Part shown: in pieces, positions 27,795 to 31,084 of the stretch
How the letters are laid out: each line of letters begins with the position of its first letter
Position numbering within the stretch: the stretch's first letter is position 1
Origin: a virus
Reading direction: 5' to 3' (one strand)
IMG/VR virus record: IMGVR_UViG_3300044618_000956
Span: 1 to 39,389 of that record
Length of the DNA: 39,389 bases
Made by a program: the position numbers and the translations under genes
The notes under the pieces: generated by a model
What the model was told of the DNA's origin: nothing
Seen by the model: the letters and a program-made list of their open reading frames with translations, nothing else
Databases searched by the model: none

Positions 27795-28151
27795 TTACGC
27801 TCCGAGATGTGAAAGCCAGACGGTCGGGGAGAAGCCGAAGAAGATGCGCTCCTTGCCCGTTGCAATAGCAACAGACGCGCTGCCGTCGATGGTCGTGCCC
27901 GCGATGGGATAGACCGTCAGCGAGTTTGCGCCGCTGTTGAACACGACAACCATAGCGCCCATTTCGGCGGGCGGAAGCTTGACGCCGGTAGATGCGGCGG
28001 TGGTCGTTACGTTGTTGAGAACCGCGCTCAGTTGCAGAGCATCGGCGGTGGTGGAGCCGGTAGCGGTCAGACTGTTGGCCGCATCGCCGCAAATGACTTC
28101 GGTAGAAAGCGGAGCATTACCAGCCGCCAGAACACGCGAGGGAATCGCCAT
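27795..28151 (-). CDS. Small beta-rich structural protein (118 aa)
   Basis: Not recognised as a named family. The chain is a run of Thr/Ala/Ser-rich strands (GDAANSLTATGSTTADALQL; VVVFNSGANSLTVYP), followed by GTTIDGSASVAIATGKERIFF. This VYP.GttIdg.as...atg....f.. order is a common signature of small phage head or head-fibre proteins. The ribosome site AAAGGGCTTAACA is clear. Position between a head-type protein and the DUF115 gene supports a capsid decoration role. Confidence 0.65.
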   Translation of the reverse strand: MAIPSRVLAAGNAPLSTEVICGDAANSLTATGSTTADALQLSAVLNNVTTTAASTGVKLPPAEMGAMVVVFNSGANSLTVYPIAGTTIDGSASVAIATGKERIFFGFSPTVWLSHLGA

Positions 28152-28153
28152 TG

Positions 28154-29479
28154 TTAAGCCCTTTCTTTGGCTTGGACGTAGAAGGTAGCATACGGAAAGG
28201 GGGTGTCCCCGTCATGGTTCCTATATAGCACATCGTATCCTGCAAATTGTTCTTCCCACCATTCGACGGGGAAAACCGATAGATGCAGGGGATGCCCTAT
28301 CAAGGAGCCCATATTGTCATGAAACATGGCAATCTTAAAGAAGCACTTGTCAACACAATCCATAATGTTTCGGATCGTGTCCGCAACCTTTTCAGGTTCA
28401 ATATGCTCCATGACATCTGTGCAATAGCCAATGTCGGCACTTACCTTCATTGACATAGGCTCGGTCAGGTCTGCGTAGACAAACGGAAACTGTCCCCGCA
28501 GATCAAGGCAGTTATCTGCGAAGTCCACGAATATGACATCGCAGTTGGTAAGTTTGTTGACCGCCAAGCCACCGCGCCCGGTGCCACAGCCGAAGTCCGC
28601 AATGATGTCCAAGAAGTGCGGCTTAGTGACTTCGGCAAATTCAGCGGCAAAGTTCTCGCCTGGGGACATGATGCGGTAGGAGTCAAACTCCCACATCTTG
28701 CGGTATTTTTCTTCCTCAGTCATAGGCTGCGCGGCCAGACGCATCTGGTTCATCACTTCCATGATGAGCCCGTCCGAATCGACCGTAATGACGCAGCCAA
28801 GGTCGATCAGGTTGTTGCAGACATCTGGGAACAGTTCGGCTTGCCGCGCCATAGTCAGGCTGGACGTAAACACCTTGCCGCCAAGCGTCACCTTGCACAG
28901 CGGTTCCGTCGCATTGATTGGCTGTTCGTAGGCGTGTCCAAGGCTTGCGCGGTGCGATGAGTCATAGCCGAACAGATGCAGCTTCCTGAAGCCCATCGTG
29001 TAAGCGAGGCACATGGACGACAGCCCTACGGTCGTGCCACCGCCGATAAGGGCATAATCATCGTCGTGGGCGGGCAAATGCTCCTCAATGCCGTCAATGG
29101 CCGGATGCCATATAAACGCGCTCCCCAGCACGTTAAAAATGGCCGGGTCGCACTGTGAGGCGATGAGATACTTATGCGCGTTGCCGATCAGCACGATATT
29201 GCCGGGCCGCGCATCAAGAATGACCTGATAGTCAGGGATGATGCCGTTCTTGCTCAAGAACGCAGCCGCGCCGTTCAGGGCAAAAATCGTCTGCCCTAAA
29301 GCCTTGCGCTTCCTGATTGTGGGTAAATGTTCCTGGAGCGATGGACCGCCGCCAACAATGACCGCGTGTCCGTCATGCGCTTCGAGCATCTTGATCCAGG
29401 ACCGATGCTTGCGCGAGTTCTCGCTAATGTTAGCGAAAAGAATGTCGTCGTTCGTATTGCAGAGAATTTCGATTTCCAT
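28154..29479 (-). CDS. DUF115 / class I methyltransferase fusion protein
   Basis: A 441-residue fusion. Residues about 35-240 are a DUF115 (Maf/MptE-like) domain: VIVGGGPSL (40-48), YALIGGGTTVGL (142-153) and a LFGYDSSH segment (169-176). DUF115 is known in motility-associated Maf proteins (flagellin glycosylation) and in archaeal pterin pyrophosphokinase relatives. Residues about 255-441 are a SAM methyltransferase: DFGCGTGRGG (295-304) and VDFAD (318-322), with DVMEHI later. No clear Shine-Dalgarno precedes the ATG. Such a two-enzyme protein among capsid genes is unusual; it could modify a virion glycan, or a host surface one. Confidence 0.75.
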   Translation of the reverse strand: MEIEILCNTNDDILFANISENSRKHRSWIKMLEAHDGHAVIVGGGPSLQEHLPTIRKRKALGQTIFALNGAAAFLSKNGIIPDYQVILDARPGNIVLIGNAHKYLIASQCDPAIFNVLGSAFIWHPAIDGIEEHLPAHDDDYALIGGGTTVGLSSMCLAYTMGFRKLHLFGYDSSHRASLGHAYEQPINATEPLCKVTLGGKVFTSSLTMARQAELFPDVCNNLIDLGCVITVDSDGLIMEVMNQMRLAAQPMTEEEKYRKMWEFDSYRIMSPGENFAAEFAEVTKPHFLDIIADFGCGTGRGGLAVNKLTNCDVIFVDFADNCLDLRGQFPFVYADLTEPMSMKVSADIGYCTDVMEHIEPEKVADTIRNIMDCVDKCFFKIAMFHDNMGSLIGHPLHLSVFPVEWWEEQFAGYDVLYRNHDGDTPFPYATFYVQAKERA

Positions 29480-30082: not shown

Positions 30083-31084
30083 TTAGGCGATGAGGACGCC
30101 TTGGAACTGAGAGCCCGAGCAGGTCATGTTGCCTGCCCAGCCGATCAGTTTCACAATGGCGTCTTGGTTGACGGACTGACGCTCACCGCCGATGGGAACA
30201 AAGTTCCGGTCAGCGTGCGGGCGGAAGTGCAGATACTTGGTGTTCAGGAACCACATGTGGTTCGCCGTAGCCGAAGCACCGATACCACCGTCAAGCACAA
30301 CGTCGGAGGCCATGCCCGCGCCGTAATACTTGAGGGAGGCGAAGCCAGCGCCAGCCATGCCCGAACCGGAGTCCGAAATGCGCTGGATAGCCTGGAGCGA
30401 CTGGAGATAGAGGCGGTAATAGTTGTTATCCGCCACGATCAGGTCGGGCTTGTCGGTGCCACGGATCAGTTGAACGGCCAGAGCATCCATGTAGGCTTGG
30501 ATGTTGGAAGCCGAGACAGCCGCGCCGCCGTTGGTCACGCCAGAGAACGACTTGGGCTGCCAGAAGGACCAAGTGGCGCGGTTAATGCCGCCGTAGGTGC
30601 CCGAGGTCGGAACGTCAGGAACAGCCGCGCCGAGGCCGGTAATGTTCTTGCCGCTGTTGCCGGTGCCATCAAGATAGATGTCGCCGCTCATGCGGTTCTG
30701 AAGTTGGGCTTCAGCGACCGACATACGACCATCAAGCAGATCAATGATGGCTTCCTTGCCGCTGTTCTGGATCATTTCGAGGCCCGAAATGGTCACAGCC
30801 GAAGCGTATTGGGTGATGCCGAATTGAGCCGCCGAAATGGGCGAGTTCTGGGACACGTTCAGCGTTTCGTAGCCGGAATAGCTGTTCGTGTTGTTGGACG
30901 AAGCGTCGTTATACATGATCTCTTGCAAGATCACGTTACCGCCGGAGAACGTCTTGACGTTCCCGCGTTCCTTCAGGCGACGCAGAAGGGCATTGTTGTT
31001 GGTGACGTTATCAGCAAGTTCACCGCTGCGGCTTTGAATATTCGTCGCAATGATGTCGCTGACAGCAGAGTTAGCATAAGCCAT
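30083..31084 (-). CDS. Major capsid protein
   Basis: A 333-residue protein directly after the scaffold, with the best ribosome site in the region (TAGGAGGCAAGCC), consistent with very high expression. The chain has an N-terminal helix-rich arm (NNNALLRRLKERGNVKTFSGG, about 29-49), an ENVILQE/YSGYETLNV beta region, a long helix segment (AQLQNRMSGDIYLDGTGN) and a C-terminal WFLNTKYLHFRPHADR strand set. I read this as an HK97-fold coat protein of the podovirus type by position and overall layout. No protease motif for head maturation is seen. Confidence 0.82.
   Translation of the reverse strand: MAYANSAVSDIIATNIQSRSGELADNVTNNNALLRRLKERGNVKTFSGGNVILQEIMYNDASSNNTNSYSGYETLNVSQNSPISAAQFGITQYASAVTISGLEMIQNSGKEAIIDLLDGRMSVAEAQLQNRMSGDIYLDGTGNSGKNITGLGAAVPDVPTSGTYGGINRATWSFWQPKSFSGVTNGGAAVSASNIQAYMDALAVQLIRGTDKPDLIVADNNYYRLYLQSLQAIQRISDSGSGMAGAGFASLKYYGAGMASDVVLDGGIGASATANHMWFLNTKYLHFRPHADRNFVPIGGERQSVNQDAIVKLIGWAGNMTCSGSQFQGVLIA

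Follow-up and report, generated by a model that had tools for sequence, protein, structure and literature searches.

Genes of the capsid block

The stretch of DNA analyzed here (the window; 39,389 nt) is a single IMG/VR virus record that encodes a portal, a major head protein, DEC (our name for its virion structural protein), tail proteins, a terminase, and replication genes. Since the terminase lies at one end of the window and the portal at the opposite end, the layout suggests a circularly permuted near-complete genome; a search for direct repeats of ≥40 bases at the window ends (window 1-39389) found none. In the capsid block, the gene order is major capsid protein (MCP), DEC, an enzyme in which a DUF115 domain is fused to a methyltransferase (DUF115-MT), S118, P193, and tail (Table 1). 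An earlier note on this DNA had described such a fusion inside the capsid gene block, between two virion-type genes. We recovered exactly this open reading frame with both Pfam domains and found it directly after the MCP and DEC genes. The virion-type neighbor, by contrast, was confirmed on the upstream side only, because the profile match of downstream S118 stayed below the cut-off, whereas DEC belongs to a PHROG of virion structural proteins.

Table 1. Features of the capsid block in the window.
Feature	Position	Strand	Basis
Fusion of DUF115 (Maf/MptE-like) to a class I SAM methyltransferase, 441 aa	28154..29479	minus	Pfam, AF2 model, fold matches
DUF115 domain of the fusion, residues 1-248	28736..29479	minus	Pfam, alignment, 5mu5 fold match
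Methyltransferase domain of the fusion, residues 249-441	28157..28735	minus	Pfam, alignment, fold matches
Major capsid protein (MCP)	30083..31084	minus	PHROG 9953 'major head protein', E 8e-105
DEC, predicted capsid decoration protein, proposed acceptor, 183 aa	29516..30067	minus	PHROG 29386 'virion structural protein'; Mx8 homologue; weak gpD-type fold matches
S118, 118-aa protein downstream of the fusion	27795..28151	minus	Weak Phage_depo_C match below cut-off; linkage control

Residues 16-175 of the fusion matched the MptE-like family PF01973, formerly DUF115 / Maf_flag10 (E 1.1e-19, 71.2 bits vs a gathering score of 34.6), and residues 293-376 matched Methyltransf_25 (E 5.5e-6, 27.4 bits vs a gathering score of 27). 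A scan of viral contigs yielded 54 loci, and full-length relatives at 43-99% identity were present in about 50 other virus contigs. In an alignment of 17 sequences, more than 80 residues were invariant across the fusion; invariant motifs were GxGPS (43-47), DAR (89-91), GYD (171-173), and H182 in the DUF115 domain, and DFGCGTGRG (295-303), which contains SAM motif I (GxGxG) of class I methyltransferases, and DVMEHI (355-360) in the methyltransferase domain. Both domains are under purifying selection (dN/dS 0.11-0.16 for the DUF115 domain and 0.06-0.09 for the methyltransferase domain). The full-length relatives, the invariant residues, and the low dN/dS together argue that the reading frame is not a chance one.

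The DUF115 domain resembles the central domain of Maf glycosyltransferases

The AlphaFold2 model of the fusion reached a mean pLDDT of 79 and a pTM of 0.57. Its residues 10-245 matched the Maf glycosyltransferase 5mu5 (Z 20.5, 220 residues, rmsd 3.4), with the match covering Maf residues 244-503 alone, i.e. the central domain, and residues ∼250-441 matched many class I methyltransferase folds (Z 15-18); the list of fold matches was dominated by the methyltransferase domain, so that other families are possible for the DUF115 part. By sequence, Maf was likewise the closest solved relative of the DUF115 domain (E 1.7e-12), and an HMM alignment placed the region of the invariant H182 against the histidine-bearing RHHSKQ of Maf. 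The assignment to DUF115, which the earlier note had named as the point on which its reading could be refuted, was thus borne out by the PF01973 profile as well as by the fold and sequence matches to Maf.

The Pfam name MptE-like points to another reading, namely a pterin or nucleotide pyrophosphokinase joined to a small-molecule methyltransferase. Archaeal MptE (6-hydroxymethyl-7,8-dihydropterin pyrophosphokinase, HPPK) indeed has the Pfam family and the fold in common with the fusion, and the model of the DUF115 part matched the M. jannaschii enzyme 8sd5 with Z 15.9. We nevertheless consider this reading very unlikely, since Maf is closer than MptE (E 0.002) in sequence as well as in fold and the scanned window ORFs included no pterin gene. 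MptE also has a different context and no fused methyltransferase.

Maf flagellin glycosyltransferases such as that of Magnetospirillum (5mu5) and CbMaf (PMC11339370) carry PF01973 as their central domain. According to PMC11339370, this domain has been likened to the sialyltransferase Cst-II, and Maf enzymes put nonulosonic acids O-linked on surface Ser/Thr of flagellin. The fusion has the fold of this central domain only; the Rossmann-like N-domain and helical C-domain of the three-domain Maf architecture are absent, the remainder of the protein is the methyltransferase, and the neighbor is a capsid gene. Among the scanned window ORFs we found no flagellin or nonulosonic-acid genes near the fusion and no other sugar gene. 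Because the N- and C-terminal domains and the flagellar context of Maf are missing, the DUF115-methyltransferase fusions are not full members of Maf.

DEC is a predicted capsid decoration protein

The Mx8 homologue of DEC is annotated 'major virion structural protein'. A fold search with the low-confidence model of DEC (pLDDT 57) gave no significant match and none better than E 0.2; the top matches were weak (E 0.2 to 1.7) and mostly to capsid decoration or capsid proteins, including lambda gpD, phage 21 SHP, Sf11, TW1, YSD1, and T1. We took these weak matches as no more than a lead; DEC is predicted to be a capsid decoration protein on the exterior of the shell. In fusion-bearing phages DEC has an N-terminal arm rich in S/T/P (SPASVSNGSTTVIPTPP in the window), which is shorter in Mx8 and which we regard as a candidate modification site.

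The enzyme occupies a modular slot

The order MCP-DEC-enzyme was kept in the sufficiently long contigs among the viral loci L001-L050, and the same slot was also found in MAGs. In one of these (L219), from a member of the Isosphaeraceae (Planctomycetes), the whole MCP-DEC-fusion-tail block lies within a contig of 649 kb, likely as a prophage, which gives a lead to the host.

When variants of the slot were surveyed by a scan with the MCP as query, the DUF115 domain was found with the same methyltransferase, alone next to DEC (several loci), within a protein of 655-684 aa that combines an N-terminal glycosyltransferase region with DUF115 and Methyltransf_24, or with a glycosyltransferase-like gene and a methyltransferase after it, joined in some loci by a GT8 gene (Pfam; PHROG glycosyltransferase). 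The glycosyltransferase-like genes of 275-283 aa had weak profile support. The slot is thus modular, with glycosyltransferase and methyltransferase partners exchanged; such swapping at a single site would point to natural selection for virion surfaces that vary.

The nearest sequenced relatives by MCP (51-55% identity) have the Mx8-like podovirus head module with homologous MCP and portal; these are Myxococcus phage Mx8, Stenotrophomonas phage BUCT555, and Bradyrhizobium phage ppBjS10J-1. DEC is also present in Mx8, and the enzyme is absent from all three. Among close relatives of the window phage, several slots with neither DEC nor DUF115 carry in place of DEC an ORF of 88-98 aa that aligns to roughly the first 113 DEC residues and nowhere else. 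Long slots that lack both (L188, L202, L205, L173) contained fibre-like or unassigned proteins and, by eye, no evident sugar enzyme. A DUF115 subtype of 258 aa (L118:8494-9270, L101, L099, L085, L115) carries KRFTG at the site of the HAY motif and has lost the conserved histidine.

DUF115 co-occurs and co-diverges with DEC

Among 157 complete slots, DUF115 was accompanied by full-length DEC in 69 and never occurred without it, while 28 slots had DEC only and 60 had neither; after thinning by MCP the corresponding counts were 36, 0, 21, and 35. The 28 slots with DEC only make up the Mx8-like branch, so DEC does not need DUF115. On the MCP tree (106 rows) the presence of DUF115 changed at least 8 times, and full-length DEC changed in the same way in all four well-supported independent pairs (median p 0.125, which is the best value attainable with four pairs, with 0.05 out of reach). 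DEC was also just upstream in 18/18 DUF115-MT loci that had been fetched by the methyltransferase alone and had upstream sequence, not all of these being independent. The KRFTG subtype of DUF115 occurred only with a DEC subtype of 157-162 aa, which is shorter than the DEC subtype of 177-183 aa.

In partial Mantel comparisons with MCP distance removed, DUF115 followed DEC at 0.71, compared with 0.30 for the tail gene, 0.30 for P193, and 0.20 for S118, values whose p-values leave shared ancestry partly in place. Within one DEC subtype the value for DUF115 and DEC was 0.76-0.80, against 0.27-0.40 for other neighbors, and within the methyltransferase fusions DUF115 followed DEC at 0.78 and its own fused methyltransferase domain at 0.53. 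This evidence of co-divergence is strong but indirect, because shared ancestry partly remains and because the same signal would arise if DEC and enzyme were exchanged together as a block.

Such block exchange is the core of a second reading, in which the enzyme modifies another virion protein (major capsid or tail) and DEC is linked to it only because the two genes move together. DEC does adjoin the enzyme gene, and the reversed fusions described below sit beside other structural-type genes. On the other hand, S118 adjoins the enzyme on its other side and co-varies far less, and DUF115 was never found apart from full-length DEC; we therefore regard this reading as unlikely. S118 itself was set aside as the main target because it is also present where DUF115 is absent and co-varies weakly.

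A third reading takes the DUF115 domain as a non-catalytic binding or targeting module for a methyltransferase that methylates a virion protein directly. The 258-aa subtype without the histidine would fit it, and DUF115 tracks DEC more closely than its own methyltransferase domain does, as expected of a targeting module. However, GxGPS, DAR, GYD, and H182 are invariant throughout the fusion family, DUF115 adjoins DEC in several loci without this methyltransferase, and other glycosyltransferases accompany it in the slot, which makes a purely targeting role very unlikely.

Split and reversed pairs occur beside other capsid genes

The earlier note had suggested a survey of phage genomes for the same fusion. 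Its full-length relatives were in uncultured viruses (the ∼50 contigs above). In a collection of 50,697 phage records, searched by tblastn with the fusion and with two of its relatives as queries, no sequenced phage carried the fusion. The sole match was to the methyltransferase half in ctUtU524, a siphovirus with a different MCP (PHROG 247), in which a methyltransferase gene (41% identity) and a separate DUF115-like gene lie side by side directly after the MCP. Split DUF115/methyltransferase neighbors were also seen, by eye, in the head-tail blocks of L321 and L324. In L321 (739-2467) the DUF115-like and methyltransferase genes are consecutive with a P-loop/sulfotransferase-like gene (MIFVTGCARSGTT, by eye), possibly a further modification step.

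Fusions in the reversed order, methyltransferase-DUF115 (∼475 aa; L232-L311), had at least 230 candidate virus loci, and they were also present in the MAG loci L222:4448-5872 and L223:2168-3616, in the latter after an MCP of PHROG 267. Most of the reversed fusions lie among small structural-type genes, have a 152-aa protein resembling PHROG 644 and a protein carrying PTAGALVLAGQAP-type repeats downstream, and adjoin neither MCP nor DEC. Against sequenced phages their match was confined to the methyltransferase half.

The earlier note had further proposed that the fusion may add or methylate a sugar on the virion or the host surface. Of these two targets, the virion appears the better supported, through the co-occurrence and co-divergence with DEC, and the host surface seems less favored. 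An enzyme acting on a host surface glycan could change the receptor or exclude superinfection; serotype-altering phage glycosyltransferases are known (PMC12619734), and in ctUtU524 the DUF115-like gene has a weak match to a PHROG named alpha-2,3-sialyltransferase. Yet at all loci of its family the DUF115-MT enzyme lies within the capsid block, and its divergence follows that of a virion protein. Enzymes for host glycans are usually found elsewhere, among early or lysogeny genes, and a host target is in our judgment quite unlikely.

A proposed role in capsid glycosylation

Taken together, the fusion is probably a Maf-type glycosyltransferase plus methyltransferase that is encoded with the head genes and decorates the capsid-surface protein DEC. 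The DUF115 domain would take a sugar from the host nucleotide-sugar pool, possibly CMP-nonulosonic acid as with Maf, the donor being host-supplied, and would transfer it to Ser/Thr of the adjacent DEC, much as Maf O-glycosylates Ser/Thr of a self-assembling surface protein. The fused methyltransferase would then methylate the sugar or the modified site, leaving the surface of the capsid with a capped glycan. We infer catalysis, this order of steps, the kind of sugar, and the role of DEC as acceptor on the outside of the capsid from the genes and models described above, and likewise a benefit to the phage through shielding, stability, or attachment. Surface decoration or shielding is just as likely a function as adsorption; in the environment, the benefit could speculatively be host attachment or protection from grazers or proteases instead of antibody shielding.

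This explanation is also favored by the recurrence of the pair, split or in reversed order, next to MCPs of unrelated families (PHROG 247 and 267). Counting against it are the loss of the conserved HAY histidine in the 258-aa subtype and the position of most reversed fusions away from MCP and DEC. More tentatively, and with somewhat less than even confidence, we suggest a modular capsid-glycosylation system that is widespread in environmental phages, in which an acceptor-recognizing DUF115 core co-diverges with a gpD-like DEC while its partners are swapped, fused in both orders, or split beside several unrelated capsid genes, resulting in serotype-like variation of the virion surface.

Virion glycosylation has been reported for mycobacteriophages (Che8 gp110, Corndog gp38, and Myrna; Freeman et al. 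2023, cited in PMC12363180 and PMC12619734), in which proteins of the capsid and the tail tube were shown to be modified and the glycans shield against antibodies. The DUF115-MT fusion would be a variant of this known process, in which a phage-encoded enzyme is likewise proposed to act on its own virion. It differs in its DUF115-type enzyme, in the methyltransferase fusion, and in the decoration protein as the proposed target. A literature search for DUF115/MptE-like proteins in phages returned nothing relevant, nor did it return a DUF115-methyltransferase fusion in a capsid block; a matching BREX paper was rejected, its domain being DUF1156, and a paper on Mx8-related podoviruses (PMC10386132) did not discuss decoration or glycosylation. 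If the proposal is correct, virion glycosylation reaches beyond mycobacteriophages into a large group of phages that are uncultured and mostly environmental, a Maf-type domain is at work outside flagella, and enzyme and substrate form a named pair. Since the enzyme co-diverges with DEC, the target is directly testable.

Standalone relatives of the methyltransferase domain (∼200 aa, 31-43% identity) were also present in L221 and L224-L228, from MAGs labelled Chlamydia, Chlamydiae, or Parachlamydiales, and the one in L227 lies on a contig of 1.17 Mb.
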